From the NCBI GenBank assembly GCA_039654915.1, contig CM077599.1, positions 25,109,501 to 25,173,500 of the forward strand: a stretch of DNA of 64,000 bases, given 5' to 3'. Source of the stretch: Aquilaria yunnanensis. Its lineage: Eukaryota; Streptophyta; Magnoliopsida; Malvales; Thymelaeaceae. Made by a program: the position numbers and the translations under genes. The notes below the pieces were generated by a model that worked only from the letters and a program-made list of their open reading frames with translations, was not told where the DNA came from and ran no database searches. How positions within the stretch are numbered: the first letter of the stretch is position 1; the number at the start of each line of letters is the position of its first letter. Below, piece after piece: positions 1 to 63,955 of this stretch.

Positions 1-139
1 ATTTTTGGGCGTTTTAACAAAGTTGTTTTAACGTAACCGTACTCCCGATCCCCGAACTCTCGCAGACCAATTTTAAGGTGACCAATCGACCTAAGAAAAC
101 TGATTGGTGGCGACTCCCAGAAAACCCGACGTTGCCACA
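1..139 (+). repeat. 3' terminal part of the 5' LTR
   Basis: The first 139 bases of the window match the last 139 bases of the 3' LTR with no difference that I can find, and end in CCACA just before the primer binding site. Identity of the two LTR ends is expected of a recent insertion, because the two LTRs are copied from one template at integration. Confidence 0.93.
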
Positions 140-142
140 GCT

Positions 143-160
143 TGGCGACTCCGCTGGGGA
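143..160 (+). other. Primer binding site, tRNA-Arg type
   Basis: TGGCGACTCCGCTGGGGA starts three bases after the 5' LTR end. Its complement ends in CGCCA, as the 3' end of a mature tRNA should. Ogre/Tat elements of plants are known to use a tRNA-Arg primer with a nearly identical site. The exact tRNA isoacceptor was not checked. Confidence 0.8.
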
Positions 161-880
161 CTCGACGTTAGTGAGTCGAGCCTAAAGTTGATTTGTTTTA
201 ATTTACTTTGCTTATTATGTGGATTTTTATATGCTATATTTACTTAGCGAAAACATGCATTATGCTTTCACAATATGAAGCTCTATACCCGAGCTTACTT
301 AAATCGAACACGATTCTTTCTAAGCGGAATTGGTGTTGTTGTCCTTGTGAGGCCATGGTCTCCAAGCCTTCACCGGTTTCAAAGTAGCAAAGTAGTGTAT
401 TGCCTTCTGAGACGGTTAGTCTCTGCATGGGCCCACGAAAAGCTACGACTCGAATTAATCCATTCCTTACATAAACCCTAGAGGGTAAGGAATCGGGCCG
501 TCACTATAATTTAGTGACGGGATTCGGGAACTATCCCTTGCCTTTTTGATAAGCCACCTTATGCATATAGAACTCCCCACTTAACCATAGAACTGACCAT
601 AGTATTCCTCCCATTTACCAACGCCATAAGCACGTCTTTGTTATGCTATGTTGTTGCTCTACACTTTTATTTTCTTCGTGTCTTATATTTATGGTTTTAA
701 TTCATTTTTCCATAATACTTCATGAGTTGTTAATTGCTATTTAACTTATTAATAACCTTATCTTTCTTGTGCAATTATTTTTCATGCATCAAAACCACGC
801 ATCAAATTATGCTAACTTTTTGGTTTTTATAATGACAACTAAAAGTTTTGAAGTTCTACGATAATGGATGAGCAAACTTA
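161..880 (+). other. Retrotransposon 5' leader, no gene seen
   Basis: Untranslated leader between the primer binding site and the 58-64 bp repeats. It has moderate base composition and short open frames only. I see nothing coding here. Confidence 0.6.
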
Positions 881-1295
881 CTCATTGCATGCATTCCATT
901 ACATTAATCACGTGCATATAAAGTATGATAAAAATAATCTCATTGCATGCATTCCATTACATCAATCACACGCATATAAAATCTGATAAAAATAATCTCA
1001 TTGCATGCATTCCATTACATTAATCACATGCATATAAAATCTGATAAAAATAATCTCATTGCATGCATTCCATTACATTAATCACGTGCATATAAAGTCT
1101 GATAAAAACATAATCTCACTTTATATTGCATGCATCCATTACATCAATCACACGCATATAAAATCTAATAAAAATAATCTCATTGCATGCATTCCATTAC
1201 ATCAATCACGTGCATATAAATTTTGATAAAAACATAATCTCATTGCATGCATCCATCACATCAATCATATACGCATAGAATCTAATAAAATAAAT
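881..1295 (+). repeat. Tandem repeats, seven units of 58-64 bp, in the 5' leader
   Basis: Units start near 881, 939, 997, 1055, 1115, 1179 and 1239. Each reads CTCATTGCATGCATTCC, then TACATYAATCA, then a GCATATAAA segment and a (T/A)GATAAAAA tail. They lie just upstream of gag in the transcribed leader. Variation between units is limited to substitutions and a few short indels. Confidence 0.9.
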
Positions 1296-1359
1296 ATTCC
1301 TTTAAAAAGGTAAAATTGGACCTCAACACCGATATTCAATTCGGCTCCAAATAAGATTA

Positions 1360-2256
1360 ATGGCAGAACAAATCGAAGGACGTCTCATAAAGATAGAGTC
1401 CAAGATAGAAAGTATGGCCGAACAAATGAGACAATTGATCGAGCTAATCAAGGTGAAAGCAATTCAAGAAGCACAAGTTCAGCCACCCATGACAGAAAAA
1501 GAAATGGTCACTTTGTTTGTCCAGACACTGAAGTACCTATATTATGACGAACTCATTGGCAATTCGGCAACTAATTTTTCTAACATTGTCATGTCTGGAG
1601 AAAGAATCGAGCATGAGATTAGGACTGGGAATATTGCTGAATCCTTTAATAATCCTATGAAAAGAGGAGGACCATCCAGAAGAAAAGATGACGAAGTACA
1701 ACAAATAGGACGCGGAAGAAGGATTCCCCTCGTGGATACTGTGGCTATCGGACCTCGCCTATCCTATTTTGCCAATGGGCCCGATAATTACCTTCCAAAT
1801 AGGCCCAATGATTATCCTCTGAATAGGCCCAATAATTATCCTCCAAATAGGCCCAATGATTATCCTTCCAATAGGCCCAACAATTATCCTTTTAACAGAC
1901 CTAATCAGTCATGGCCACCTGCTCCTACTCCTCCAGTACCTGCACCAAGACCAAGAGAAGTTTTCACACCAATTTCCATGACTTATACTGAGTTATACCC
2001 AAAACTCATCGAAAGACAATTTATCCGTCCAATTCCTACAAAGCCATTCAAACCCCCATATCCAAGGTGGTATGACCCTAATATTACCTGCCCATATCAT
2101 GATGGCGTTCCAGGCCATGGCTTGGAAAATTGCATGGCATTGAAGCGTACAGTTCAACAATTAATCGAGTCAAAGTGGTTGGACTTTTCCGATGAGCCAA
2201 ATGTCACCCACAATCCATTGCCGCCTCATCAAGCAAAACCAAGTCCAAGTTGCTAG
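1360..2256 (+). CDS. gag: Shortened Gag protein of Ogre/Tat-type retrotransposon
   Basis: An intact 298-residue frame starting at ATG 1360. Residues 1-45 form a charged, probably coiled-coil segment (MAEQIEGRLIKIESKIESM). Residues about 46-95 match the end of the plant gypsy gag core (PPMTEKEMVTLFVQTL, then GERIEHEIRTG). Residues about 140-185 are a degenerate repeat of the type NRPN(D/N)YPP. Near residues 244-258 is the variant zinc-knuckle-like motif CPYHDGVPGHGLENC, followed by LKRTVQQLIES, which is typical of this gag family. Full-length gags of this type carry roughly 250-300 more residues between the coiled coil and the PPMTEKE block. Those are missing here without loss of frame. The protein could still package RNA or multimerise with an intact partner gag, but that is inference. 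Confidence 0.82.
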   Translation: MAEQIEGRLIKIESKIESMAEQMRQLIELIKVKAIQEAQVQPPMTEKEMVTLFVQTLKYLYYDELIGNSATNFSNIVMSGERIEHEIRTGNIAESFNNPMKRGGPSRRKDDEVQQIGRGRRIPLVDTVAIGPRLSYFANGPDNYLPNRPNDYPLNRPNNYPPNRPNDYPSNRPNNYPFNRPNQSWPPAPTPPVPAPRPREVFTPISMTYTELYPKLIERQFIRPIPTKPFKPPYPRWYDPNITCPYHDGVPGHGLENCMALKRTVQQLIESKWLDFSDEPNVTHNPLPPHQAKPSPSC

Positions 2257-4487
2257 GCCCGATATGATTGATAATTGAAAAGTGAAGATTTCGAGCTAGA
2301 ATTACATTGACTTTGGAAGGCCTCCAAGTCAGATCTGACCTAACAGTCCGCATACATTTTCGAATGACAGGGAATCCTTTGAATAAACTTGTATCTTTGA
2401 AAGCTTGCAAAAGTAATCTAATAGTAAAAATCTCCTAGATTTAGTCCAGAATCTAGGGTGTAGTCTTTGTTAAATGGACACCTGCTATTCTTTTTCTGGT
2501 ACAACAAAAAGATGTGATGCGTGCATTCTACTACTTTCCATTTTTACACTCTTTCCATTATACTATCCATTATTGCTATCATACTTTGCTTTCTAAATGA
2601 TACTACTCGTGGGTGAAAATAAAAAGTTAAGGGAAATTTAATAGTAATGATCTTGAAAGTGCTGCCAAATCTAGTAAGAAGGATTTCATATGTTGCACCT
2701 CAACCCTAAAAAAGAATTCACAGTGGTTATCAACATCCTTGCAAGAAGTTTGGGGTTAGTTTCCAAACAAGGTAGCTCTCATATTAAATGACTTCAGTGG
2801 CCTCCCAATTCTCATAAATGCTCAAAAAAAAAAAAAAAAAAAGGTTCTCAGTTTTCCGCAACACAAACTCCGAAAAGAAAAAGTTCATCCCTTCCATCAA
2901 AAAGCCAACAAGGGAAAATTCAAAACCAAAAAGAACTGAGAACAAGCACGAGCAAGCAAGGCCACTTGAGTCATTTCATTTCAAGAAAGTTATCAAATAT
3001 GTCATCACCATAGCTCACACAAAAAAAAAAAGGAACAAAAAAAAAAAACAAAACAAAAACAAAAAAAAAAAGAGAAAGGAAAAAAAGGGCTCAAACTAGA
3101 GCAAAAGAAAAAAAAGAAAACAAGTGAGCTATGGATTCTAAACTGAAAACCTGCAAAGGCGGTCTAGAATACAAAAGCAACTTTCAAGCCAAGCATACAT
3201 AAAGACCACGATAGTTGGGGGGGGCAACAGATGGGGTTTAACTTTCTGGAAAGAGTGGCAAATTGAGGTCATCACTATTGAGTTTTTCACCATAATCAAA
3301 TTTGCTCACGAGTAGTATTAAAAGACCCTTCTTTCACACCACTCAAACTTAACTTTATTCAGACCTAATATTTACCTCTTAATATCATTCTCATTCAGCT
3401 AAAAGACTGCCACAAAAAAAAAAAAAACATTCAAACTTAACTTTCCTCACACCTAACATTTACCTCTCGATATCATCCTCATTCAGTTAAAAGGCTATTA
3501 TTGTGAATCATGTTTCTACCTTATTGCCTTGCACAGTTTATGTCTTCGAGTTGGAAAGGGAAGAATGGCAGGACATTTTAATTGAAAACAAAGACCGTAG
3601 ATTACTTTGTCAAGCTTTGCAAATTGATGAAAGTTTTTCTTTAAGGCCAAACCATTATTTATTAATGTATGTAGACTTAAAAGTGAGGAGATAGCTTGAG
3701 TCTTTCTTTAATAAGATGTGGTTCTTGTAAGAGAAATTTACGATCAAGTGCCAGCACAAAGGTCTAGAAATGCTCGACCTTCTGTTAAATCAAAGGCGAG
3801 ATGATACCTTTTATCCACATAAATAACATATTCAGGGGGGCAAAGTAGTCTCTACGAAGCGTAAGAGGAGTACTGCCAACAAAGAAACTCAACAGACAAG
3901 GGGGCAAGTCTTATGGATCAAAACTTGAGCTCAAGGAAGAGCAATCATTCAGACTATAACATGGAGATAAATAAGTGTCGACAAGGCCACAAGAAAAGGG
4001 GCAAAACAGACATTGAAAGTAAAGCCTTTGATGGTATCAAATCCATGACAATGGATGAGTACCCGAAAGAGATATAAATTATGAGGCGGGCCAACTTTAA
4101 AGAAATTGAGGCCAAAATTCAAGAACAAGTCAAAGAAAGGGGATTTTGGAAAGAGTTGGGCTTTTGAGGCAATGAACAAAAGCTGGAAAGCATAAAGAGA
4201 TTCAATGATAGTCCAAGAAGGCCATCACAAAGAGGATCCAGTAAAACAAAGACATAAAGAACTAGATCAAAAAAAAAAACAAAACATTAGTTACACATGC
4301 TCTGCATTCATGCATTTCATATTATGCATACATAGCCTTTACATAACAAGGACCAAACGGGAAGCACATCTACGGCACAGCTACAGCAATATAAGCTGAG
4401 ATCTCAATGTCATCAACTCTTACCAATCTATCACTGGATACACAGCTAATATGCGGGACCAACCCGCATCAGGAATTCAAGAATAAA
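2257..4487 (+). other. Retrotransposon internal region without a recognisable gene (pol missing)
   Basis: This is where protease, reverse transcriptase, RNase H and integrase would be expected after gag, but no frame shows any of their motifs. There is a run of 19 A at 2824-2842 and A-rich stretches to about 3110, plus short G-rich tracts near 3218, 3835 and 3900 that resemble purine tracts. A 63-codon frame at 3503-3694 has no family resemblance I recognise. The stretch looks like untranslated 3' sequence of a parent element brought next to gag by deletion of pol. Confidence 0.6.
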
Positions 4488-4835
4488 GTAGACAATATTG
4501 TCAAAAGCTTGGATACCGATTCAATAATCGAGGCTACACCTGGAATGATCGGATTGACGCCAGCTAGTAGTATCCAAGATAAGAGATAGCTATAGCCAAG
4601 GATAAGGAAGATATATAAAAAATATATATATATATATAATAGACAATATTGTCAAAAGCCTGGCAATTGATTCAATAATCGAGGCTACACCTAGAAGGAC
4701 AGGATTGATGCCAGCTTAGCAGCATCCAAGATAAGAGATAGTCAAAGATAAGGCAGACATCAAGAAATATTGTCATTGAAAATTTGTCAAAAGCGGACAA
4801 TGGATTCAATAATCGAGGACTGGATCGACGTCAGC
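4488..4835 (+). repeat. Three degenerate direct repeats before the cargo genes
   Basis: A unit of about 155 bp (AGACAATATTGTCAAAAGC, then GATTCAATAATCGAGG and AGGATTGAYGCCAGC) begins at about 4488 and recurs at about 4643. A shorter, more diverged third copy lies at about 4790-4835. A (TA)n run at about 4618-4638 separates the first two. The units contain the palindrome ACAATATTGT. No open frame spans them. Confidence 0.7.
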
Positions 4836-4996
4836 TCGATGGAATATCAAAAATATCTATCACATCAAAATGAAGTAGGATCCACTTTTCCGGTTAAATG
4901 GCGGATACGGTACTCCGTGACTCTCAAGTCGGTTCTCTCAGTTGCCCATAATAACTGATTCCTTCACCCCTTCTTTCTTTTACTTCCTCCTAGAAA

Positions 4997-5545
4997 ATGG
5001 ATCCTACTTTTTCCGCCTTGCGAAAGTATTTCCCTTCTCTCCCAATGAACATTCTCAAAAAGATCTACCAAGTTCGCTGTGAACGATTAAGAGTTCTGAT
5101 GCACAAAGGAATCCCTGAAGATGTGCGGTGGTTAATCGAAGCCAAGGTTCGTCTGGCAGGTGAAATCCCAGAGGCATTTGTGTCTCACATGCCTGGTATA
5201 GGCAAAAGCTCTTATGCCAAAAAGCGAAGAGCGAAAAGGTTACAAGTCTGCCATAAATGTGGACGGTGGACTTGTAATACTAAATGTCGTTCTTTAGGGA
5301 TAATCTCTGATAATCGAGAAGATAAAATACGATTCATTAAGAATGGACTGAGTAAAGACTCGTTGGATGATATCCAATTGACTCTTGAGACGCATTCTTG
5401 TGGATCTGTGCAACGTGAACTACTTGGTTTGTGGAGCATTTTTCATGAAGAACGAAACCGTTACAGTCCCGGGAATCTGACTGTAAATGACCCTGTTTGT
5501 CAGCTTGTAAGAAAACTGGATGGGAAGCAAATCCTCGACTCATAG
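4997..5545 (+). CDS. Carlavirus NABP-like zinc-finger protein, copy 1 (open frame)
   Basis: An intact frame of 182 residues from ATG 4997, the only unbroken one of three tandem copies. The N-terminal part (about residues 1-70) is helical-looking and basic (LRKYFPSL, LKKIYQVRCER). Near residues 72-85 comes a glycine-serine-tyrosine segment followed by the basic cluster KKRRAKR. Directly after it are four cysteines with spacing C-x2-C-x4-C-x3-C (CHKCGRWTCNTKC). A basic stretch followed by a small zinc finger is the hallmark of the cysteine-rich nucleic-acid-binding proteins of carlaviruses (Pfam Carla_C4), which bind nucleic acid, enter the nucleus in some species and act in symptom induction or silencing suppression. 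The remaining 90 residues have no match I recognise. I see no TATA box in its immediate upstream sequence, unlike the later copies. Homology to the viral family is an inference from motif order. Confidence 0.7.
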   Translation: MDPTFSALRKYFPSLPMNILKKIYQVRCERLRVLMHKGIPEDVRWLIEAKVRLAGEIPEAFVSHMPGIGKSSYAKKRRAKRLQVCHKCGRWTCNTKCRSLGIISDNREDKIRFIKNGLSKDSLDDIQLTLETHSCGSVQRELLGLWSIFHEERNRYSPGNLTVNDPVCQLVRKLDGKQILDS

Positions 5546-5703
5546 AAGCCGTTAATCCCGTTACTGGACGTAAAACCAGTGAAAGATGTGAGCCACAGTC
5601 ACAATCACTGTACATACAATTTATCATATTTAAAATTTTCCATTTTTCTTTTAATAATGTATTTACTCCCGTAAGTGTAATCGACACGTTATCCATTTCA
5701 TCA

Positions 5704-5711
5704 CTATAAAT
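5704..5711 (+). promoter_or_regulatory. TATA box upstream of NABP-like copy 2
   Basis: CTATAAAT, preceded by a TTATCCATTTCATCA block that recurs before copy 3 and, altered, before the LOG-like gene. It lies 121 bp before the copy 2 ATG, leaving a leader of about 90 bp. The shared block suggests the promoter was duplicated along with the gene. Confidence 0.6.
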
Positions 5712-5831
5712 GCGTGTTCTTCCTTCTGATTAAGCAGCGGATAAGATACCTCGTGACTTCTAAAGTTGGTTATTCCAGTCTCCTACAATAACTGATTCAT
5801 TTCCCTCTTCTCTCAAATTCTTCTCTCATCA

Positions 5832-6379
5832 ATGGATTCTACTCTTTCTGCACTACGAAAATACTTTCCTTCCCTTCCAATAAAAGTCCTTAAAAAGATC
5901 TACCTTACTAGATGTGAAAGAATCAGAGTTTTTACACGCAAAGGCATTCCCGATAATGTGCAGTGGATAATTGAAGCTAAGGTCCGTTTGGCAGGTGAAG
6001 TTCCAGATGCATTTATGCCCCGCATGCCCGGTTTAGGTAAAAGCCGTTATGCCAAAAGGCGAAGAGCAAAGAGACTAGGCGTGTGTTATAAATGTGGGTG
6101 ATGGAATTGTATTACTAAATGTCGCTCTTTAGGATACATCTCCATAAATCGTGAAGATAAAAGAAAATTCATTAAGAATGGCCTGCGTAAGGAATCTCTG
6201 GAAGATATCCGAGAGACTCTTGAAACGCATTCTTGTGGAAAAGTGCAAGGTGAAATTATCAGTTTATGGAGGACTTACCATAAAGAACAAAACCGTTACA
6301 GTCTTGGGAATGTGACTTTAATGACCCTGTTTGTCAGTTTGTGAGAAAACTGGATGGGAAGCAAATCCCCGACTTATAG
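5832..6379 (+). pseudogene. Carlavirus NABP-like gene, copy 2 (broken)
   Basis: A close tandem relative of the gene at 4997-5545, starting at ATG 5832. The N-terminal region, the KRRRAKR cluster and the first two cysteines of the zinc finger are kept. A TGA at 6099-6101 falls inside the finger, just after CYKCG, where copy 1 has an arginine codon. A one-base deletion near 6315-6325 shifts the frame close to the C terminus. Both changes are simple and fairly recent-looking, because the rest of the sequence is still well conserved. The shortened product of 89 residues would lack half of the finger. Confidence 0.72.
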
Positions 6380-6529
6380 AAGACATTGAAGCCGTTACTA
6401 GACATAAACTAGTGGAAGATGAGAGTCACAGTCATGATTCCTGTACATATAAGCTGTCATTTGTCTTTTCTTTTGACAATAATGTACTTGCTTCTGTAAG
6501 TGTAATTAACGCATTATCCCTTTCATCAC

Positions 6530-6535
6530 TATAAA
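6530..6535 (+). promoter_or_regulatory. TATA box upstream of NABP-like copy 3
   Basis: TATAAA within a TTATCCCTTTCATCAC block, 61 bp before the ATG at 6596. Same block as before copy 2. The leader here is shorter than in copy 2 (the AGCAGCGGATAAG segment is absent). Confidence 0.6.
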
Positions 6536-6595
6536 TATGTGTTAGTTATTTTCGTTTCCTACAATCACTAATTTCTTTCTTTGCCTCCTTCATCA

Positions 6596-7144
6596 ATGGA
6601 GTCTTCTCTTTCCACCCTACGAAAGTATTTTCCTTCCTTCCCAATAAATGTTCTTAAAAAGATTTATCAAGCTAGATGTGAACGATTCAGAGTATTTATG
6701 CACAAAGGCATTCCTGATAATGTGCGGTGGCTAATTGAAGCTAAGGTTCGTTCAGCTGGTGAAATTCCAGAAGCGTTTTTTCCCCGTATGCCCGGCTTTG
6801 GTAAAAGCGCTTATGCCAAAAAAAGAAGAGCAAAGAGGCTAGGCGTTTGTCATAATTGTGGATGGTGGATTTGCGGCAATAAATGTCGTTCTCCAGGAGT
6901 GATCACCAGAAATCGTAATGATAGAATAAGATTCATTAAGAATGGCTTGCGTAAGGAATCTCTAGAAGATATCCGAGAGGTTCTTGAAGCGCATTCTTGC
7001 GGAATAGTGCAATTTGAGGTTGTTGGATTATGGATAATTCTCCAAAAAGAATGAGAACGTTACAGTCTTGGGAATCTGACCCTAAACGATCCTGTTTGCC
7101 AGTTTGTGAAAAAGCTAGATGAGATGCAAATCACCGATTCATAG
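6596..7144 (+). pseudogene. Carlavirus NABP-like gene, copy 3 (C-terminal nonsense codon)
   Basis: The third tandem copy, with ATG at 6596 (the frame is open a little upstream but without an earlier ATG). The helical N-terminal region, the KKRRAKR cluster and all four finger cysteines (CHNCGWWICGNKC, spacing C-x2-C-x4-C-x3-C) are present. A TGA at 7052-7054 ends the protein at 152 residues. Clear homology to the C terminus of copy 1 continues in frame to a TAG at 7142-7144. Since the basic stretch and finger are complete, the shortened product could still bind nucleic acid, so calling it dead is not certain. Confidence 0.68.
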
Positions 7145-7194
7145 AAAGCATTGAAGCCGTTACTGGACGCAAAGCCAGTAGAAGACGGAACAAG

Positions 7195-7745
7195 GTCACG
7201 ATTACTGTACGTGCTACCTGTCGCTTTTGAAATTTTCATCCCCTTTTGGTAATAATGTATCCACTCCTGACATGAACTAAAGTCACGATTACTGTACGTG
7301 CTAGCTGTCGCTTTTGAAATTTTCCTCCCCTTTCGGCGATAATGTATCCATTCCTGACATGAACCAAAGTCACGATTACTGTACGTGCTAGCTGTCGCTT
7401 TTGAAATTTTCCTCCCCTTTCGGCGATAATGTATCCACTCCTGACATGAGCCATAGTCACGATACTGTACATGCTAGCTGTCGCTTTTGAAATTTTCCTC
7501 CTTCTTTGGCAATAATATACCCACTCCTGACACGGACTACTGTATATAGCTGCCACTTTTTAAAATTTTCCTTCTCTTCCAACAATCACGTACCTACTCC
7601 TGACGTAAGCTACAGTAGTGACTACTGTACATGCTAGCAGCTATTTTGAAAATTTTCCTCCTCTTTTAACGATAGTGTACCTATACCTGATCAGAGTCAT
7701 ACTCGTGACTACTGTGAATAGCTGGCAATAATGTATCCATTCTTG
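7195..7745 (+). repeat. Amplified upstream module: about seven units of 78-87 bp
   Basis: Each unit runs GTCACGATTACTGTACGTGC, then TAGCTGTCGCTTTTGAAATT, then a TTCCTCCCC(T)n segment and ATAATGTATCCACTCCTGA. The first four begin near 7195, 7282, 7369 and 7456, and later ones are more diverged. A single diverged unit lies in the same position before copy 2 (about 5595-5690) and copy 3 (about 6424-6520). It is therefore an upstream promoter-type module that has been amplified in front of the LOG-like gene. The TGTACGTGC/GTACATGC segments are near-palindromic. Confidence 0.8.
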
Positions 7746-7777
7746 AAAATAAAATTATTGCCTTATCTCTTCATCTC

Positions 7778-7783
7778 TATAAA
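7778..7783 (+). promoter_or_regulatory. TATA box upstream of the LOG-like gene
   Basis: CTCTATAAATATA, preceded by CCTTATCTCTTCATC, matching the block before NABP-like copies 2 and 3. It lies about 40 bp before the ATG at 7818. Transcription starting 30 bp downstream would leave almost no leader. An out-of-frame ATG lies at 7808. Confidence 0.55.
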
Positions 7784-7817
7784 TATATCCTCTTTTCTCA
7801 CAAGGGTATGGATAGGA

Positions 7818-8447
7818 ATGGAGAAAACCCCAACTCGTAAATCCTGAAGTATTTGTGTATTTTCTGGGGCTTTTCCTGGAAAAGATGAAGAGTATTTAAA
7901 GGCAGCCAACCATTTGGGTAGAGTATTAGCTGAGCGAAAAATACATTTAGTTTATGGAGGAGGTAGTGTCGGATTAATGGGAGGTGTAGCATCAGCAGCA
8001 TCTCTAGGAGGAAGTCAAGTTCTGGGCATTATCCCTGGACCTTTGAAATTTATTTCTGGGGGCACGATTGGAGAAGAATTAGTGGTTAAAAATTTGCAAG
8101 AGCGTGTGTTACAAATGCTTTTAAATGCTGATGCTTTTATCGCTCTACCAGGTGGTTTTGGCACATTGGGAGAAGTCTTTCAAATTGCTTCCATGGCCCA
8201 ACTTAATTTGCATAAGAAACCCATTGGGCTTTTAAATGTTAACAATTTCTTTACAGGTCTGATAGCTTTTATGGATTATGCTATGCAGAAGAATTTCATA
8301 TCAAGAGTGGCACGGCGAATCATAATATCCGCAACAACTGCTGAAGAATTGCTAGATAAAATACAAGCTTTTGTTCCTGAACCAGATCCAACAATGATTC
8401 AGATAGACTGGACACGACAGTCTTTCCCGACCAGTTCACTCCCATAA
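7818..8447 (+). pseudogene. LOG-like: LONELY GUY-like cytokinin riboside 5'-monophosphate phosphoribohydrolase, intronless retro-captured copy
   Basis: From ATG 7818 the frame matches LOG enzymes, which release active cytokinin bases from cytokinin nucleotides in one step. A TGA at 7845-7847 (codon 10) interrupts it. From codon 11 (SICVFSG) the frame stays open to TAA 8445-8447, so total length is about 209 codons, normal for LOG. Visible family blocks are ICVFSGAFPGKDEEYLKAA, LVYGGGSVGLMGG, the conserved arginine in LQERVLQM, the catalytic PGGFGTLGE (PGGxGTxxE), PIGLLNVNNFF and FISRVARRIIIS. Plant LOG genes have several introns and this copy has none, pointing to capture of a spliced transcript. 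Apart from the early TGA no damage is seen, so the mutation may be recent, bypassed by readthrough, or absent from sister copies. It sits downstream of an amplified promoter module and its own TATA box. Confidence 0.85.
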
Positions 8448-8960
8448 TGGTCCTCTACTCACCCTGTTGAAGTATTGTGGAAGAAAGAAGCGATCTGATC
8501 CGTTTTTCTTGTCCTTTAGTTTTATTATCAGCATTTTCTTTCGCGTTTCAGTTTTTCCTTTCAGGGAATTTCTTTTTTAATATAGTTTCGTCCATGCTGA
8601 TATTAAAACCATAGGACAATGCCTTTAGGTTGGAATGGCTGAGTAAAGAGTAATTTTTGTTACTCTTGAGATGCATCCTATTAGGTCTACTAGGCATAAC
8701 ATTTTGGGGTAGTTAAGCTTTAACCTTATTCGGATGACATATCTCACAAGGAAATTTATATTTACTGAAGAAAATATTAGATGAACCTTGAATATTGATT
8801 CCAAACATCCGTTCCCTTTACATAATTTGTCAGTGTTATTGTCATCATCAAGATTCACTCGTTTTATCGAAGTCTAATTCTTTGCGCTCGCCTATTATGA
8901 AAATTCACACTTTCGAAGAAAATTATTCCAATTTCAATTGCTTTCATATAAATTTCGCTC
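8448..8960 (+). other. Spacer between LOG-like gene and hairpin array, no gene seen
   Basis: Probably the 3' untranslated region of the LOG-like gene followed by unique retrotransposon sequence. Only short frames in all directions and no repeats. Confidence 0.5.
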
Positions 8961-10495
8961 GAGGTCCTAAGGAAAGCTCCTTAGCCTCAAAATCAATTTT
9001 CATCATCAGGGTTTTAAGGATGGAACCTTTGCCTTGAAAAGAATCAATTTTCATCATCGGGGTTTTAAGGATGGAACCTTTGCCTCGAAAACAATCAATC
9101 TTCATCATCGGGGTTTTAAGGATGAAACCTTTGCCTCGAAAACAACTAATTTTCATCATCGAGGTTTTAAGATGGAACCTTTGCCTCGAGATCAATCAAT
9201 CAATCCGGGGTTTTAAGGATGGGACATTTGCCTCGAGATCAATTATCAATCCGAGGTTTTAAGGATGGAACCTTTGCCTCGAAAACAATCAATTATTAAT
9301 CCGAGGTTTTAAGGATGGAACCTTTGCCTCGAACTCAATCAATCGTCGAGGTTTTAAGGATGGAACCTTTGCCTCGACATCAATTAATCAATCCGAGGTT
9401 TTAAGGATAGAACCTTTGCCTCGACATCAATCAATCAATCCGAGGTTTTAAGGATGGAACCTTTGTCTCGACATCAATCAATCAATTCGAGGCTTTAAGG
9501 ATGGAACCTTTGCCTCGACATCAATTATCAATCCGAGGTTTTAAGGATGGAACCTTTGCCTCGAAAACAATCAATTATCAATCCGAGGTTTTAAGGATGG
9601 AACCTTTGCCTCGAAAACGATCAATTATCAATCCGAGGTTTTAAGGATGGAACCTTTGCCTCGAACTCAATCAATCGTCGAGGTTTTAAGGATGGAACCT
9701 TTGCCTCGACATCAATTATCAATCCGAGGTTTTAAGGATGGAACCTTTGCCTCGAAAACAATCAATTATCAATCCGAGGTTTTAAGGATAGAACCTTTGC
9801 CTCGAGATCAATCAATCAATCCGGGGTTTTAAGGATGGAACCTTTGCCTCGAGATCAATTATCAATCCGAGGTTTTAAGGATGGAACCTTTGCCTCGACA
9901 TCAATCAATCAATTCGAGGTTTTAAGGATGGAACCTTTGCCTCGACATCAATCAATCAATCCGGGGTTTTAAGGATGGAACCTTTGCCTCGAGATCAATC
10001 AATCAATTCGAGGTTTTAAGGATGGAACCTTTGCCTCGACATCAATCAATCAATCCGGGGTTTTAAGGATGGAACCTTTGCCTCGAGATCAATCAATCAA
10101 TCCGAGGTTTTAAGGATGGAACCTTTGCCTCAAGATCAATCAATCAATCCGAGGTTTTAAGGATGGAACCTTTGCCTCGAAAACAATCAATTTTCATTCA
10201 TCGGGGTTGTAAGGATGGAACCTTTGCCTCGAAATCAATCAATCAATCAGAGGTTTTAAGGATGAAACCTATGCCTCGAAATCAAGATCAATCAATCTGA
10301 GGTTTTAAGGATGGAACCTTTGCCTCGAAATCAATCAATCAATTCGAGGTTTTAAGGATGGAACCTTTGCTTCAAAATCAATCAATCAATCCGAGGTTTT
10401 AAGGATGGAACCTTTGCCTCAGAAACAATCAATTTTCCTTCAACGATAGGAGAGCTCCTATCGCCGGGGTTCTAAGGAGAGTTCCTTAACCTCAG
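8961..10495 (+). repeat. Array of about 32 hairpin-forming tandem repeats (45-52 bp)
   Basis: Each unit has the core CGAGGTTTTAAGGATGGAAC followed by CTTTGCCTCG and a spacer rich in ATCAATCAATC. The core can fold: CGAGG pairs with CCTCG and, inside, AAGG pairs with CCTT around the loop ATGGAA. I count about 32 units, with spacing about 51 bp at the left end and 45-48 bp afterwards. The first (8961-8990) and last (about 10463-10495) units differ in sequence but keep or lengthen the inner stem. Open frames across this stretch are by-products of the repeats. The array ends about 90 bp before the polypurine tract. Confidence 0.92.
10444..10463 (+). repeat. Perfect 9-bp inverted repeat near the 3' end of the internal region
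   Basis: CGATAGGAG and CTCCTATCG flank a two-base centre, forming a strong hairpin just before the last diverged unit of the repeat array and about 120 bp before the polypurine tract. Its position suggests a structural RNA element, but no function can be assigned. Confidence 0.7.
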
Positions 10496-10584
10496 GATTT
10501 AGGTGGCGAGAAGGTTTTCAATACCTAGCTAAGCCGGACGAAATTTGGTAACTAACTTTGCATACATCATGTCCCATGAAGCAT

Positions 10585-10599
10585 GCAAAGGGGGGCAGC
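10585..10599 (+). other. Polypurine tract
   Basis: GCAAAGGGGGGCAGC lies immediately before the TGTTGACACC start of the 3' LTR, the expected place for plus-strand priming. Confidence 0.8.
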
Positions 10600-11097
10600 T
10601 GTTGACACCCAATTTCGTCCAACCATAAAAAAAAAAAAAAAAAAAAATTTTAAAAGAAATTAAACAAAAGAAATTAAATAAAAAAAATTTATTATTATTA
10701 CTAAAAATTTTAATTAGCTTAAAATACATTTTTGTTTTGTGAATATTTGATTTAAAATGATATATATGTGTATTTGAAAGAAAAAAAGAAAACTCCATAA
10801 AAATGACAAAATTTAAAAGTTTGAGGTAAAAATGACAAAATTAAGAAGTTTCAGGCAAAATTGACAAATTCTGAAAGTTCCAGGAGCATTTGGCAGTTTG
10901 TCACATAAAATTTTGAGCCTGCCGACGTTTTTGGCTCAAATTGACAGAAAACGACAAAATTGTCAAAATCAGAAGCTTCAGGAACTTATCCAGAGGCTGA
11001 GAGACGTAAAGGACTAAAACTGTCATTTTACCAATTTAAGAGATAAGTTTGAAATTTTTTATTAATTTATCCATCAACAGTTCAGCTAAACTTCCTC

Positions 11098-11106
11098 TAT
11101 AAATAG
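11098..11106 (+). promoter_or_regulatory. LTR TATA box
   Basis: TATAAATAG in the 3' LTR, about 500 bp from the LTR start, followed by a pyrimidine and C-rich stretch. It is the only strong TATA motif in the 5' half of the LTR and should mark the U3/R border about 30 bp downstream. Confidence 0.7.
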
Positions 11107-11319
11107 CCCCCCAAATTTTGTGCTGAAGACAGAAAAAAATAGAAAGAAAACTTAGAGCTCCGTTTCAAAAAAAAGATAAAATTACAGCCTTATTCCCTAG
11201 CTTATCCTTTCTCTACCCAGAAAGTCCCAAAAATTCCTTTTCTTACGATTCGACCATCTTCTTCGTTTGTTTTTTTTCTTTTCTTCCGTTTTCTCTCTCT
11301 CTCTCCGTTCACCGTTTTT

Positions 11320-11640
11320 CTCTCCTCTGCCGCCGTCGTCCGGCCCAGCCACGCCCGCCGTCGTCATCCCGCCGCCGCAGGTAGCTCCCACGCCGTCCCG
11401 CCACCGTCCGCTTCCCTTCCCGTCGTGTCCCGTCTCTCCCTCCGCCGCGTCTCTCTCTCCTAGTTCGCCGGCCGCCGCCCCTCGCCTGGCCCGCCGTCAC
11501 CCCGCCGTCCCTCGCCTGGCCCGCCATCGCCTCGCCGCCCCATTCCTGGGCCACCGTTGCCTCGCCGTCCCTCGCCTGGCGTGCCGTCACCCAGCTCCGC
11601 CCCCTTTCCCCCTCGCGCGCGCGCGCGTCCCTGTTTTCTT
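11320..11640 (+). other. GC-rich island inside the LTR
   Basis: A sharply GC-rich segment (many CCGCCG, GCCCG and CGCGCG runs) in otherwise AT-rich DNA, about 200 bp after the predicted LTR transcription start. It is made of degenerate repeats around TCGCCTGGCCCGCCGTC. Long open frames on both strands encode only Pro/Ala/Arg-rich low-complexity sequence and are probably not genes. It may be CpG-rich leader with strong RNA structure. Confidence 0.7.
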
Positions 11641-11849
11641 GTTCTCAGAATTCAAGTTTTAATTTCAAGGGTACAACTCTCATTTAATCCTTCATCTTTT
11701 CAATTTCTTTCACTTTGGTCGCTAACTTTGTATTTTATTCTTGCAGAATTAATTACTAACCCTTTTAATTTTTACTTGTTTGTTTATTATTTGTTTATTA
11801 CTAACCCCCTTTTTTATTGTTGTTATTAACTTACTAACAACTAACTTTT

Positions 11850-12290
11850 AATACTATTATTGTTACTAACCTTTTAATTTTTGCATTATTACTAACTTTT
11901 ATAATTGTTGTTAACAATTAATTAACTTTTATTATTGTTGTTAATTAATTAATTTAATTAACTTGGCTAGCTTTTTATTATTTTTGTTAATTAATTAATT
12001 TAATTAATTTGGCTAACTTTTTATTTATTGTTGTTAATTAATTTAATTAATTTGGCTAACTTTTTATTTATTGTTGTTAATTAATTTAATTAATTTGGCT
12101 AACTTTTTATTATTGTTGTTAATTAATTAATTTAATTAACTTGGCTAACTTTTTACTGTTGTTAATTAATTAATTTAATTAACTTGGCTAACTTTTTATT
12201 ATTGTGGTTAATTAATTAATTTAATTAACTTGACTAACTTTTTATTATTGTTGTTTAACAATTAATTTAATTAACTTTGCTAACATTTAT
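11850..12290 (+). repeat. AT-rich tandem repeats inside the LTR
   Basis: About eight units of roughly 45-55 bp with the pattern TTGTTGTTAATTAATT, AATTTAATTAAC and TTGGCTAACTTTTTATT. Units differ by small indels. No coding potential. Confidence 0.8.
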
Positions 12291-13076
12291 TATTATTTTT
12301 AAAGTGGATGGCCAAAAAGCCCCACTTTATTATTATTAATTTTTTTTCTTTATATAATTTTTTTTATTTAATTCACCTTTACCCTTTACTAATTAATAAA
12401 TAAATGAAAATTAAAAGAAGATTATTTTGTAATTAATTATTAAGGCAAATAAAAATTATTTTTAAAAGAAAGCCAATTATTTTTATTTTTACATACATGT
12501 TTTTAATTCTTTAAAGATAACAAAAAGTTAAAATTAATTTTAATAGTTATTCTTATCCAGTAAAAATAATAAAAAAATAAAAATAAAACCTGTTAAAAAA
12601 AATACATGAAAATTAAGACTTTATATTTTACTGATTTATTTAAAATATAACTTTTAAATCCACTAAAATAATAAATATTTTTCATTAAACAAGAAAACAA
12701 AAAGAAAATTAAAACAAGATAAGAAAGATAAGAAAAAGATAATAAAGATAAGAAAGATAAGATAAGATAAGAAAGATAAGAAGGAAAAGAAAGAAAAGAA
12801 AGAAAAATATAGAAAATAAAAATTTTTAGATTATTAATGAATCTAAAAATTCTATAACAAAAAGAATTACGAATTAGTAATTAAACTAATAATTAATTCC
12901 ATAAAAATAAGAATTAAATAATTAACTATAAATTAAATCAACTTACATATCCGGATGATCCGTCAGGATCTGCGGTTTAAAAAAAAATATCACCCTTTTA
13001 ATTAAATAAATTAAATAAAAAAAAGATAAAAATCCATATTTACAATATGGATTAAATTATTTAAAAGTTCACCAAA

Positions 13077-13165
13077 TTCCGTGTCCAAATGACTCGGCAG
13101 AGTCCATGGTTCGGAATCAAAAATCTTCCGTGTCCAAATGACTCGGCAGAGTCCATGGTTCGGAA
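13077..13165 (+). repeat. Duplicated 40-bp motif near the LTR end
   Basis: An identical 40-base unit at 13077-13116 and 13126-13165. It begins TTCCGTGTCCAAATGACTCG and ends GAGTCCATGGTTCGGAA, so its two ends (TTCCG and CGGAA) are also inverted repeats. Confidence 0.85.
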
Positions 13166-13440
13166 GTATAAAATTTCATACAAATTAATTAATTTAAAAA
13201 TCCACATTTCGACTAATCCAGTTAAAATTTCTAATTTTGAAAATTAACTGAGAATTATTTAAAAGCAAAGCAAAACAAAATTAAAATCAACTAAGGTGCC
13301 AATTTTTGGGCGTTTTAACAAAGTTGTTTTAACGTAACCGTACTCCCGATCCCCGAACTCTCGCAGACCAATTTTAAGGTGACCAATCGACCTAAGAAAA
13401 CTGATTGGTGGCGACTCCCAGAAAACCCGACGTTGCCACA

Positions 13441-47190: not shown

Positions 47191-48635
47191 GTTGTCATTT
47201 CCGGACTTAGTTAGGTCACACTTGGATTACCTCGTTTGTTCCGCTCCCGTCTCTTTACCTTCCAAAGCCCGCCCCGTTACCCTTTCCGCCAAACAACTGC
47301 TCACTCGGTAATAATTTCTCTCCTACATTCTATTATTGTTGCATGCGTAGCTCAAATCGATAAAATTTCTCCCTTTTGTTGATTATTTTATCTGGGATCT
47401 TCGAGTTTTTGTTTGTTTTGAGTTGATTGCTTTTTTTTTTTTTTTTTTTGTTTCTGGGTTTTGATTTGGGGTTTATCTCTGTGGGTTTTGATCTGTGTTT
47501 GATTTATGTTGGAAGTTGGGTTCTTTAGAAGGGACGATCTTTTTAAAGGGCATCACGGGCTTTTCTATAAAGCTTTCATCTTTTAGTAGCTTTTCTTGAA
47601 AATGACCCGATCCTTTGCATATCAGCTGAAATGGTTCGTTTAGTATCTAGAAGTCCTCGTGAAATTTTAAAATTTTTGTATTGGATTTGGAGGCATATTG
47701 CTGAAATTGGTAGAGGAGGAGAAAATGGGCATGCTTTCTGTTGCTTATGTTTTTGCGTAGTTGCAGCCTCAGAAGACTTGGCTGGTGAATAGATTTCAGA
47801 CGTCCTGTGTTAGAAACTGATTGATCATAAGTGTTTATGCATAGGATATTTGCAGTTAGTGGTGGTGATTACTCTGTAATAAAATTGTACATAATTGTTG
47901 AAGAGATTTTGTTATGCAACTAATGGTGTAGTCAGGCCATGTGCACGTGGAACAGACCACATCAGGATCAAGAAAAGTCATTTACTCCTCAACATAGCTC
48001 CTTTCCTAGTCCTTAGGATGAATTGATTTTTATCTGAGATTTTGCCTGTGTCTGTTTCATTATTGTGCTAGCTTTTGCTGTTGTTTGTGAAGTGGAGCAT
48101 CGAGTGAAGAGCAGAGAGCACTTAGCTTGCATCTTCTCATTTTGCTCCAGACATTGATTGCCTTGTTAATCTAGAAATGGATGATTTGGTTCCATTTCTT
48201 TAACGATTTTAACAAGATACATTTGGATTGTGAATCCCTGATTTTAGGGTGATCTTCATAGTCTGCTTGCCACTTTCATCATTCTTTTGGCTCGCCCATG
48301 TGGTAAAAAGAAACTGGCACCATGAGCTACTTGCAATCTGTTAGCTAATATTGCTTTTTAAAAATTGTGGTTTTACTTGTGACATGTTCCCTTTGGTGTC
48401 GTCCTGTGACCTGACTTGTGCTTTTATTTCATTCAAACCATATAAAAGCAGAGAGTTGGGCATTGGCTTTTCTGGCTCCAGTTTCATCGACATCCCTGTC
48501 GTTTGTTTTATTTGTTTCTTCATGATATTGCAGTCTATTTTCATCGACAGTCTCCTATATACAGCAGTACAAGTTTCGTGTATTTGTGTAACTGTATGGA
48601 AGATTCATGCAGTGGTCTTCTATTTGCTTTCAGAG

Positions 48636-49085
48636 ATGGCAAGCTTGGGACTGACCAATCCATGTGCTGTACAAGCTGCACCACCAAAAAAATTCGCTAG
48701 TGCTTTTGTAAAGAGCCCAGCATTACTACGATCCACGGGGAACTTCTCCAAGTCGCTTGGGTTGAAATTGTCCTCAAATTTCAGGGTATTGGCAGCATAC
48801 AAGATTAAGCTAATTGGACCGGAGGGCGAAGAGCAGGAGTTTGAAGCCCGTGATGATGAGTTCATCCTTGATGCAGCTGAGAATGCAGGGATGGACCTGC
48901 CATACTCGTGCAGGGCTGGGGCTTGCTCAACATGTGCGGGGAAGATCGTTGAGGGAACAGTGGATCAATCTGACGGGTCATTCCTTGATGACGACCAAAT
49001 GGAGAAGGGTTATGTGCTGACATGCGTTTCATATCCAACTTCGGATTGTGTGATTCATACCCACAAGGAGGGTGATCTTTACTAA
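48636..49085 (+). CDS. Plastid [2Fe-2S] ferredoxin, root/non-photosynthetic type
   Basis: An intron-free coding exon of 149 residues, transferring electrons to plastid enzymes such as nitrite reductase, sulfite reductase and glutamate synthase. Residues 1-52 form a serine- and lysine-rich plastid transit peptide ([20 protein letters not shown]), with the mature protein beginning near [13 protein letters not shown]. Cluster ligands are seen as C-x4-C-x2-C in CRAGACSTC and a fourth cysteine in [30 protein letters not shown] and [13 protein letters not shown] resemble root-type (Fd3-like) rather than leaf ferredoxins. The start is set by the ATG just after the acceptor TTTCAG. The frame is open farther upstream, but that part is intron. 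A 5' UTR intron (47308 to about 48633, GT-AG) separates a non-coding first exon. Confidence 0.95.
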
Positions 49086-55649: not shown

Positions 55650-58600
55650 TAATGGTGAACATTGGGCCGGGTCAGGACCGGCCCAGCTTGGGACCGGCTT
55701 GCGTCAAGCATGGCCCAGGCACGGTCAAGCCCGGCACGGCACGGGCCCGGTAAAAATACGGCTAAGGGTGGGCTGGTTACGGGCTCTAATGAGAAGAGGG
55801 AGGCAAGTGGGCTCGGCACGGCCCAATTCGCAATTGGGCCCGGCACGGATAGAGACCGGCACGGGTGGCGCCCAACGGTCGCCTGCCACCAACGTTCCGA
55901 AATTTAAAAAAAAAAAGGCAAATAACACAATTAGTCCCTCTAACGGTTGACAGCCATTTTTTGACCCCAGAAATTACCCCCCCCCCCCCAAACAACTATT
56001 TTGTAAGGGTTTTTTAGTAAAAAAAAAAAGAAGGCATTCCCCTATAAATAGGGAGGCCATTTCCACCATTTCTTCACACCAATTTTAGCAATCTCTCATT
56101 CTCTACTAATATATTCTCTCATTTCTTTGAATCACTCAATATTATTTTCTTCATTCTCAATCAATTCTCAATTACTTTCGAAGCTCGTGATCTGCTCAAT
56201 TTTTCCTCACACAAATGGCATCAAGAGGAAAGGGAAATGCCTCAAGCTCTTCATCCCGTATCAGTTTGAGGTCATTTTTCCGTGGCCTTTCCCGACCGGT
56301 GACTCGTGGGACTCATATCCAACAAACTGACGATGACGAGCAATTCGATATGAGTCAATACGACTTAGGGCTCGACGATCAACTTTCTGATGATGACGTT
56401 GAGGAGGTGGAGCCAACGGTAGCAGGGAATGTTGGTGGAGGAGATGGTTCTCAACAAACTCCGACAAGCCATCAAGCCAAACTTCCGCCACAAGGTAAGA
56501 CATCGAGGCTCATTGCATGGGTTTGAGAGTATTTTGACCAAGTTTTTGAGAAGGATAGTCATGGAAACGATGCGAGGTTCACACATTGCAAACATTACAA
56601 GCAAAAGCTCGCGCACAAGAAGAACTCTGGCACAGGAACACTGAGACGTCACATGAAACATAAGCATCCGAATTTATGTCCAGATGCAGCTACTAGTACT
56701 AGCGGTCAGACACAGCTTGCAAGTAGTGCCAGCGGATCAGGTATTTTTAAATTTAATCAAAAAGATTGTAGAGAAGGCATGGTAGAATGAATGATGTTAA
56801 CTGAAAAACCATTTACACAATTGGAAGATAGACACATCGAAAAATGGATTACATCATACTTAAACCCTGCTTTTAAAAGAACATCTAGGACTACTGCTAG
56901 GAGGGAGGCATTTAAAATTTATGAAGCTGGTAAATCAAACTTACAAGCATACTTATCTGCTTTTGATCATTCTATCTTATTCACTAGTGACATGTGAACT
57001 TCATCACTATGACAAGATTATTATTGTATAACTGTACATTGGATTGATGATAGTTGGGTTATTCAAAAATGTATCATTGTATTTAAGTGGATGGAGGTCG
57101 ATCATACTGGTTGGAACATATTCAATGTAATTTCAGAAAGTTTAAAAGAATTTTTTTGTCATGACAAGGTTTTTAGCATAACATTTGATAATGCATCAAA
57201 CAATGATGTCGCGGTTGAGACATTGAAGAAATCACTAGAATCACTAGAACCTATCCGTGATGCCGCATTTTTTCATATTAGTTGTGTATGTCATATTTTA
57301 AACTTAGCTATCCAAAAAGGTTTTCAAGTTTTGAGTAATGAAATTACTCCAATTAGGTGAGCAATCCATTATTTTAAGTCAAGGACTAAAGTTTTTAAAG
57401 AGTTTAAGCAATATTGTCTGGAAAATGGCCTCGATTTTAGTTGAAAACGTTTTAAACTTGATTGCCCTACCCGATGGAACTCGACTTACGAGATGTTGAT
57501 GGATGCGATGTCATTTGCTGCACACATGACATGTTTTATAAATGTTAGAGAAAAGAAAATGATTTTGAAACAAGAGATGTGGGATAAACTGTCAAAATTG
57601 GCTGCTGTGCTGCGATATTTTTATGATGCCACTGTTTTTTGCTCCGGTGTATACTATCCCACATCGTACAAAGTTTTATTGCATATGGTCAACATTGCAT
57701 GGGTTTTTTAACCAATACAAAGATGACGAGTTCTTAAAAGACACAATTAAGGCCATGAAAGATAAATGGATTTTATATTTTAGTATTATACCCCCGATCT
57801 ACTTACTTGCATCTGTACTAGACCCGACCGTAAGAATCACGGATACACAACAGCTACTTGAGGGTTATTATAGTTTCTTATAAATGACACATATTTCTGT
57901 TCATGCTATAACTGCCTCTATTGATGAGCACTTGCGAGAGTTATTTAAGATTTATGCCGATCGGTATAAAGATAAGGTTGCAAACACTACTTCCACTACC
58001 ATCGGGTCTTCATCATTGTCGGACTCATTATCATTCAATCCGGCTGAACAACTTCCCAAACGGCCCCGTGCTGCAGCATCCAGTCTTGCTGAAGTGGACG
58101 CATACCTCAACTTTGTTTGGGAGAATAGTGAGACCGACATTCTAGAATGGTGGAAAGCAAGAAGCAACAAATTTCCAATACTCTCCATCATTTCCAAAGA
58201 AGTTCTAGTTGTTCCCGTCTCAACCGTTGCATCGGAGTCCGCTTTCAGTGCCGGGAAGCGTGTAATTTCAAAGAAACGCACAAGGTTATCACCAGATGCA
58301 GTTGAAGTTTGTATATGCAACCGTGATTGGGGTCTTGCAGCTTTAAGATTACAAGACCACAAGAGTTCCGACGAGGAAAACCCCGATGAGATAGAAGCGT
58401 AAATCCACAGTTTGCTCATTATTTACTTACTTTGTATTTGATCTGATTTTGCTGTTTAGCATAGATCGTAGTTTTTATTTTGCATTTATTTTTATGGAAC
58501 GTTTCGCTATTGAGTAATGTAAAGCCCATTCCATGGTATGTAAGTGCCGTTTGGCTTTAAAATTAATAAAAGTTCACACCGGTGGTGATGTTTTACTCTT

Positions 58601-62575: not shown

Positions 62576-63955
62576 ATGGCTAGAGCTAGCAACTGCACAT
62601 TTGGGCTCTTGCTTCTCTCTCTTGCAGGTTAGTTCCTATTGTTCCATCCTTTTCTAACTTCTGTTTTTTTTTCTTATATTCTTGTATTAGATTAATTTTA
62701 AGCTTGCTTAGTTCACTAATCCTTTTTTTTTTTTTTTTGGGTTTACTTTTATGTTTTACATACAGTGCAAAGCTTCGGCCTCAGGGTCGGAGTAAACTAT
62801 GGAAGAGTAGCGGACAACATCCCCCCGCCGGCTCAAGTCGCCGCCTTCTTGCGGTCCATCGGTGTCCAGCGAATCAAAATCTACGATGCCGACCCCGCCG
62901 TCCTCGCCGCCTTCGCTAACACTGGCGTCTACATCGTCATCGGACTCGGCGACCAGACCCTCCAAAGCATGACAGACCAAGCTACAGCTCAGAACTGGGT
63001 CCAACAGAAGGTCCAGCCTCATCTTCCCCAGACACAGATCACCAGCATCATTGTCGGGAACGAGGTTTTCGCAGCAGACGACACCGTTTCATGGTCCAAT
63101 ATCCTCCCCGCAATGCGGAACGTTCACAGCGCTCTGGTGAACCTGAACCTTGACAAGCAAGTAACCGTCACAACAGCGCACGCTCTGAACGTCCTCGCCA
63201 CCTCGGACCCTCCTTCAACGGGGGCTTTCCGGCAAGACATTGTTCAATATATGCAGCCAATCTTGGAATTCCAGTCCCAAGTAAATTCCCCTTTCATGAT
63301 CAATGCTTACCCTTTCTTCGCGTACAAGGAAAACTCGAACCAGATACCGTTACCCTACGTGTTGTTCGAGCCTAACCAAGGGCATGTCGATCAAAACACA
63401 AACTTGGTTTATGACAACATGTTGTATGCACAAATTGATGCTGTGTACGCAGCAATCAAGGCACTGGGACATGAAGACATCGAGGTTCGGGTAGCGGAGA
63501 CCGGGTGGCCTTCGAAAGGGGATGCAGATGAACCAGGGGCTAGTCCAGATTACGCCAGAAGGTACAATGGTAACTTGATCCAGAGGATTGAAAGGGGGCA
63601 AGCGACACCAGCCAAGCCTAATGTCCCAGTTCAAGCTTATGTCTTCGCTCTTTTTAACGAGGATTTAAAGCCTGGACCGACATCTGAGAGTAACTACGGT
63701 CTATATTATCCGGATACTACGCCGGTTTATGATCTTAATCTATACAAGGGTTCACCACAACTAACATATTCATCGTGTCCTAAGATAAATGTAAGAAAAC
63801 TGCTGCAATATTCTCGTAGTCAGATTTTATCTAGCCAATTACTTGTTAGCGTTCGGGATCTAATATTTTGAATTGCTTTTTCTTTTCAGGGGTTTCACAG
63901 AAGCAGCCTTCTGGTAGTTGTTTTGGTATATTTTCTTTCTACGTACTTGAGCTGA
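62576..63955 (+). CDS. Glucan endo-1,3-beta-glucosidase (GH17), probably GPI-anchored
   Basis: Three coding exons: 62576-62627, 62766-63790 and 63890-63955, GT-AG introns, 380 residues. Exon 1 and the start of exon 2 encode a signal peptide (MARASNCTFGLLLLSLAVQS). The GH17 domain begins with LRVGVNYGRVADNIPPP. The proton donor lies in SIIVGNEVF and the nucleophile in VRVAETGWPSKGD. Exon 3 encodes RSSLLVVVLVYFLSTYLS, a hydrophobic tail typical of GPI-anchor signals. Without the last splice the frame would run on to a hydrophilic tail, which fits the family less well. Such enzymes hydrolyse callose at the cell surface or plasmodesmata, or act in defence. There is no C-terminal X8 carbohydrate-binding domain. 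The gene looks intact. Confidence 0.93.

Follow-up and report, generated by a model that had tools for sequence, protein, structure and literature searches.

A conserved set of NABP-like and LOG-like genes in a pol-less LTR retrotransposon family of Aquilaria yunnanensis

The extra open reading frames (ORFs) of plant long terminal repeat (LTR) retrotransposons mostly have no known homologue or function (PMC6317226). We describe such genes in a 64,000-nt stretch of the Aquilaria yunnanensis genome (CM077599.1, positions 25,109,501 to 25,173,500, forward strand), hereafter the window. An LTR retrotransposon in the window carries three tandem genes for proteins related to the cysteine-rich nucleic-acid-binding proteins (NABP) of carlaviruses, followed by a LOG-like gene. 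Together these genes form an accessory module, conserved and mobile, that occurs in retrotransposons of two kinds. LOG/YgdH extra domains have been reported in LTR elements of Citrus and Populus (PMC9289625, citing Steinbauerova et al. 2011). There, as here, a LOG-type gene sits in Gypsy-type elements, in Citrus and, under a looser filter, in Populus; however, the section on these domains mentions no NABP, and the consensuses were built around the reverse transcriptase, whereas the window family is without pol. The NABPs of carlaviruses and other flexiviruses (PF01623, PF05515) have the same basic cluster followed by a cysteine finger, and the window proteins exceed the profile cut-off. They differ in lying in a retrotransposon, in their length of 182 aa and in their tandem arrangement. 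Carlavirus cysteine-rich proteins are silencing suppressors, and p12 of chrysanthemum virus B causes hyperplasia (PMC12172455). Large Ogre-like elements of Phalaenopsis, whose extra ORF for an AlkB-type RNA demethylase is thought to counter host control (PMC9289625), resemble the window element in size, in the Ogre relationship that is suggested for it and in having an extra ORF, but the domain is another one and they have gag-pol, unlike the window element. The TRP28 ORFs of Retand (PMC11963269) are likewise accessory ORFs between pol and the 3' LTR, predicted to bind nucleic acid and accompanied by tandem repeats, but they are antisense, encode another domain and belong to another lineage.

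The preliminary description of this locus knew of no such gene combination in a plant LTR retrotransposon. This stands for the NABP family and for the NABP-LOG pair, for which we found no report, but not for LOG domains in LTR elements, which were already published. The NABP family is not named in the excerpts of PMC7264820, PMC11963269, PMC6317226 and PMC13317346, and no paper joining NABP with retrotransposons was found among the titles and abstract starts of the open-access literature, which is weak evidence of absence. Cucumber has a sequence like a betaflexivirus replicase, not NABP (PMC3136472). The survey of PMC6317226 set a minimum of 250 codons for extra ORFs, so that genes of 182 aa and ~209-217 aa would escape it, and screens anchored on reverse transcriptase would miss a family that has no pol.

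Positions 1-13440 of the window hold most of a ~16.2-kb LTR retrotransposon, a complete and recent insertion as judged by comparison of its LTRs. The LTR pair is nearly identical (of 2852 aligned columns, 3 are mismatched and 12 gapped), the ends are TG...CA, and a 5-bp target site duplication, AACCT, is present at both outer ends; these features identify an LTR retrotransposon. All four cargo genes sit between gag (1360-2256) and the 3' LTR (10600-13440), with their ORFs in the places and order given by the preliminary description. The features of the element are as follows, where sisters are the other genomic copies discussed below.

1..139, + strand: 3' end of the 5' LTR, identical to 13302-13440; the remainder lies upstream of the window (locus L010, 589-3439)
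143..162, + strand: candidate primer binding site just inside the 5' LTR, called by its position and TGG start
1360..2256, + strand: gag remnant of 298 aa, an ORF that is longer in sisters
4886..4996, + strand: conserved NABP1 leader, common to L001, L049, L050 and L052, where it lies downstream of an integrase
4997..5545, + strand: NABP1, intact, 182 aa, above the Viral_NABP and Carla_C4 cut-offs; open in 27 of 29 sisters
5832..6380, + strand: NABP2, interrupted in the window copy; open in 24 of the 28 sisters having it; CTATAAAT at 5704
6596..7143, + strand: NABP3, interrupted in the window copy; open in 25 of the 28 sisters having it; CTATAAAT at 6529
7191..7532, + strand: 87-bp tandem repeats upstream of LOG, degenerate beyond
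7818..8447, + strand: LOG-like gene (PF03641, TIGR00730), with an in-frame TGA at the tenth codon in the window copy; open at 209 aa in 21 of the 27 sisters that have the gene fully in reach
9010..10433, + strand: 47-bp tandem array of ~30 copies
10600..13440, + strand: 3' LTR, TGTTGACACC ... TTGCCACA, from the LTR alignment, preceded by a purine-rich tract

As the preliminary description had it, the cargo belongs to an element without pol. No pol-like ORF was found in the window element and its gag is truncated; it is therefore filed as non-autonomous. Nor was one seen among the ORFs listed for nine sister copies in their 9.2 kb of upstream sequence. Copy L011 has a gag-protease ORF of 732 aa, the end of which gives a weak, sub-threshold match to aspartic protease models (22.1 bits against a cut-off of 24.3), and L017 and L019 have a gag ORF of 583 aa, that of L017 matching Retrotrans_gag. 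The gag-protease layout, the long LTRs and the candidate primer binding site, which we take to be of the tRNA-Arg type, suggest an Ogre/Tat-like backbone for an element that itself has no reverse transcriptase. A primer binding site of the tRNA-Arg type is given for Ogre (PMC9289625).

The homology first read from the letters alone is borne out by profile searches. NABP1 scores 30.9 bits with Viral_NABP (cut-off 23) and 26.8 bits with Carla_C4 (cut-off 20.9), the two profiles of the PF01623/PF05515 pair, and has a basic cluster followed by C-x2-C-x4-C-x3-C. In the window copy, NABP2 is broken by a TGA at 6099-6101 and a later frame change, and NABP3 by a TGA at 7052-7054; the open pieces of both exceed both cut-offs. 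When the relatives were aligned, 26 of 27 matched Viral_NABP and 26 of 27 matched Carla_C4; the basic cluster and cysteine finger are conserved, and the length is constant across plants. A PDB profile search with NABP gave a best E of 0.3, and an AlphaFold2 model, with a mean pLDDT of 58, was too poor to use. Two scans of a viral contig collection confirmed no NABP relatives. Near the NABP genes of the window element no viral replicase or coat protein gene was seen; the context is that of a retrotransposon, and an endogenous carlavirus was rejected on this ground.

The LOG-like protein scores 107 bits with PF03641 (cut-off 27) and 149 bits with TIGR00730 (cut-off 96). With the NCBIfam LOG equivalog, a model built for prokaryote annotation, its score is 98 where the cut-off is 300; as an argument this shortfall is weak. 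Comparison with sister copies places the start at the ATG at 7818, upstream of the listed frame start at 7914, and the gene is interrupted by the in-frame TGA at 7845-7847. LOG enzymes are marked by the motifs MHxRK and PGGxGTxxE. In the alignment the second is kept as PGGFGTLGE; in the first the arginine is kept and the lysine is replaced by valine, which makes enzyme activity uncertain. The protein shares 60-64% identity with the five LOG relatives used for comparison, and 46-47% with two Arabidopsis LOG chains. Among the 120 listed LOG relatives (P0121-P0240), 103 end in an LxLxL tail, many with a preceding basic stretch; P0143, P0152 and P0148 are among those with the tail. The tail resembles an EAR co-repressor motif, and host LOGs are not known to have it. 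It is absent from the LOG proteins of the window family and of the older element L050, and thus cannot explain the window element.

The host assembly (842 Mb) was searched with NABP1 and LOG. At least 150 NABP1 matches were scored, the best of 8,281 first-look candidates, at 98-100% identity and none with a stop. At least 150 LOG matches, the best of 3,653 candidates, were scored at 99-100% identity, and five of the best-scoring 150 have the short 199-aa LOG frame seen in the window. Both lists hold best-scoring matches, give lower bounds and are biased to intact copies. Twenty-nine sisters with the same gene order were read, nine from the NABP1 list and twenty near its lower end; all were picked through NABP1, so that cargo-free copies fall outside the sample. 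All 29 have at least two NABP genes and 27 a whole LOG gene, and most frames are open. A one-off chimera, the outcome that the preliminary description had set against its own proposal, is thereby rejected. Three NABP places are found in 28 of the 29; L040 has two, without a LOG match in the stretch read, and the stretch fetched for L044 ends within LOG. One extra NABP copy is seen in L023, and the spacing suggests extra copies in L034 and L044. The NABP-LOG distances point to additional copies in all three of these sisters; the copy number of the NABP array is thus variable.

The sisters thus represent an LTR retrotransposon family that lacks pol, is present in high copy number and has moved recently. 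Among the nine copies with flanks, six have LTR pairs differing at 0-1 sites over 1.9-3.2 kb, L011 has no difference in 406 columns and L023 has 38 in 2653 (gap columns uncounted in each case); for L017 no LTR pair aligned within the stretches examined. Target duplications are visible in two further copies, L013 and L025. Four of the nine have no gag match and keep the NABP-LOG module.

The four cargo genes are the best-conserved DNA of the family. Over the window and nine copies (the LTR being matched in three and gag in five of the nine sisters), the median pairwise substitution is 1.3% for NABP1, 1.1% for NABP2, 2.7% for NABP3 and 1.3% for LOG. It is 0.9% for the leader and ~3% for the spacers; the mid region reaches 6.4%, the 5' untranslated region (UTR) 7.2%, the LTR 9.0% and gag 10.0%. 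The genes show purifying selection, with pooled ratios of nonsynonymous to synonymous substitution (dN/dS) of 0.06-0.21. On nine copies, L023 being excluded, the ratio is 0.06 for NABP1, 0.12 for NABP3 and 0.21 for LOG; NABP2 gives 0.18 once the window copy is removed, whose frame change is reflected in the 0.56 obtained with it. Between NABP1 and the NABP of L001, dN/dS is 0.18. Variants present in two or more copies have nonsynonymous to synonymous counts of 7:13 in NABP1, 14:26 in NABP3 and 22:32 in LOG, against a neutral ratio of 3.3-3.6; NABP2, at 33:29, mixes divergent forms. The singleton counts are 18:10 (NABP1), 40:33 (NABP2), 30:22 (NABP3) and 42:28 (LOG).

The module is also found behind an integrase. 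In the 3.3-kb contig L001 (DAIEQH010000041.1), an intact NABP lies downstream of an integrase gene (rve, Integrase_H2C2). This contig is filed under a metagenome-assembled genome (MAG) of Candidatus Nomurabacteria, yet looks plant-like, with a plant-type Gypsy integrase and NABP, and is probably plant contamination in a bacterial MAG. Its DNA homology with the window runs from 111 bases before the NABP1 ATG to ~60 bases past the stop; 63 of 73 aligned bases are identical in the leader core and 34 of 92 in the stretch before it. Searching the host genome with the L001 integrase gave 91 scored matches of 26,992 candidates. Fourteen, at 66-72% identity, all contain one or more stops; of the other 77, at 58-63%, 48 are stop-free (stop labels tallied by hand). 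The 2.5 kb downstream was examined for three of the fourteen (L049, L050, L052) and for one of the 77 (L051). Leader and NABP follow the integrase in all three of the former, the NABP being 70-80% identical to NABP1. In L050, NABP is followed by LOG (74-82%, in two frames) and then by the region that follows LOG in the window; L049 and L052 have this post-LOG region and no LOG match within the 2.5 kb. In L051, neither NABP nor LOG occurs in the 2.5 kb downstream of its intact integrase. A 405-aa frame of L051 (1285-2499) matches Transposase_32 (PF20167, 115 bits) where the other group has NABP.

These older elements (L049, L050 and L052), like L001, are probably of the Athila lineage. NABP then LOG thus existed behind an integrase, and transfer into the non-autonomous family is most likely. 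The module probably passed from such an integrase-bearing element into the Ogre/Tat-like backbone, the direction being our inference, and NABP would have multiplied within that backbone. Direct capture of a host LOG by the window element was rejected, L050 already having NABP then LOG; it is also disfavoured by the identities, higher to the LOG relatives than to the Arabidopsis chains.

Of the 266 NABP relatives found, 120 are listed, some of them named as belonging to Populus, Xanthoceras and Orobanche. Source names among the 120 LOG relatives listed include Reevesia, Paulownia, Populus, Xanthoceras, Diplodiscus and Melia. When contig sizes were compared (113 for NABP and 70 for LOG, chromosome-size contigs left out), seven were common to both, where jittering gives an expectation of 2.8. 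Among contigs longer than 2 kb, a limit chosen post hoc, three sizes (8723, 4511 and 2128) were shared against 0.16 expected. This suggests that P0008/P0143, P0012/P0152 and P0090/P0148 share contigs and that NABP and LOG occur together in other plants.

Within 200 bases upstream, the TATA-like CTATAAA occurs in 29 of 29 copies for NABP2, 29 of 29 for NABP3 and 27 of 28 for LOG, mostly at fixed distances of 128, 67 and 41 bases, respectively; the copies are near-identical, so that this counts as a single observation. In the window, CTATAAAT at 7777 lies 41 bases before the LOG ATG; with eight occurrences against 5.6 expected, it is no commoner there than by chance. CTATAAA was found upstream of NABP1 in none of 30 copies, ten of which have only 100 bases in reach. 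Directly before the NABP1 ATG stand a pyrimidine tract and a TAG, so that splicing of the NABP1 mRNA is possible. Elsewhere in the window lie a hAT transposase dimerisation region (57884-58402; PF05699, 83.9 bits) and two host-type genes, one with a 2Fe-2S ferredoxin domain (48351-49085) and one of glycosyl hydrolase family 17 (62765-63871). Among the glucanase relatives listed, most come from rosids, and the best rows are of Malvales and Malpighiales.

The reading that we favour, with somewhat better than even confidence, is that of a NABP-LOG accessory set under purifying selection in a pol-less family, with an older integrase-bearing source and an anti-silencing or helper function. We propose that NABP would be a trans-acting, probably nuclear, nucleic-acid-binding accessory protein that may shield the nucleic acid of the element from host silencing, by analogy with the carlavirus cysteine-rich proteins. 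LOG would be a helper altering the host cell via cytokinin nucleotides or by another, non-enzymatic route, and the replication enzymes would be supplied in trans by another element. Overall, the most likely role of NABP would be to protect the element from silencing or to handle its nucleic acid, while LOG would assist through a chemistry that is uncertain. Several observations weigh against this reading. Three of the four cargo genes (NABP2, NABP3 and LOG) are broken in the window copy, only NABP1 being intact, and since its LTRs are only 3 mismatches apart the genes are not needed in every copy. Two of the three older elements sampled have no LOG in reach, so that NABP does not depend on LOG. 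The Athila label of the integrase of L001, and likewise of the L049, L050 and L052 elements, is tentative. Shared variants contrast only weakly with singletons (Fisher p 0.08 for NABP1, 0.04 for NABP3 and 0.05 for LOG). Finally, median dS is 3.4% for NABP1, 3.4% for LOG and 8.8% for NABP3; because the NABP1 and LOG values are about half the substitution level of the UTR and mid region, recombination or younger ancestry may explain part of the cargo conservation.

The last point, together with the very young insertions and the broken genes of the window copy, would suit a neutral passenger, swept along by a recent burst and conserved in appearance only from youth or backbone exchange. We consider this distinctly improbable in view of the dN/dS values, the skewed shared variants, the constant length of the NABP family across plants and the dN/dS between NABP1 and the L001 NABP. 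It is possible, if doubtful, that NABP is instead an RNA chaperone or packaging protein that takes the place of the missing gag nucleocapsid and delivers the non-autonomous RNA to the particles of a partner, with silencing uninvolved. The conserved basic cluster and cysteine finger would fit such a role, as would the retention of the module in the four copies without a gag match; however, pol-bearing elements, which would be expected to encode a gag themselves, also have NABP behind their integrase (the gene being intact in L001), and the known viral relatives are silencing suppressors (PMC12172455). Membership of the LOG family and the hyperplasia caused by chrysanthemum virus B p12 (PMC12172455) are compatible with the growth module of the preliminary description, in which LOG makes active cytokinin in meristem or germ-line cells, NABP promotes division and inheritance of the element is raised. 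The replaced lysine of MHxRK, LOG missing beside NABP in two of the three older elements and, as a weak argument, the low score with the prokaryote-oriented equivalog make this unlikely. The Viral_NABP and Carla_C4 homology would be expected of an endogenous carlavirus remnant. We give next to no credence to such a remnant, or to a one-off chimera with a captured host LOG, given the large plant family with hundreds of members per cluster, the retrotransposon flanks and shared leader, the 29 sister copies and the joint presence of NABP then LOG in L050.

The favoured reading, an accessory set kept by selection, can be carried further only tentatively. NABP and LOG could form a mobile counter-defence and host-manipulation module passing between plant retrotransposon lineages. 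NABP would suppress silencing, and LOG, most listed relatives of which have the basic stretch and an LxLxL tail presumably like TOPLESS-recruiting EAR motifs, would act in the nucleus. The flexivirus NABP would then share ancestry with the plant family, and the viral gene may derive from a retrotransposon, not the other way round. Elements that have lost their replication genes retain, under selection, a relative of viral silencing suppressors, and the same module occurs in older elements of another type. Whether plant retrotransposons, like viruses, carry anti-silencing genes thereby becomes open to test, as does an exchange of such genes between retrotransposons and RNA viruses.

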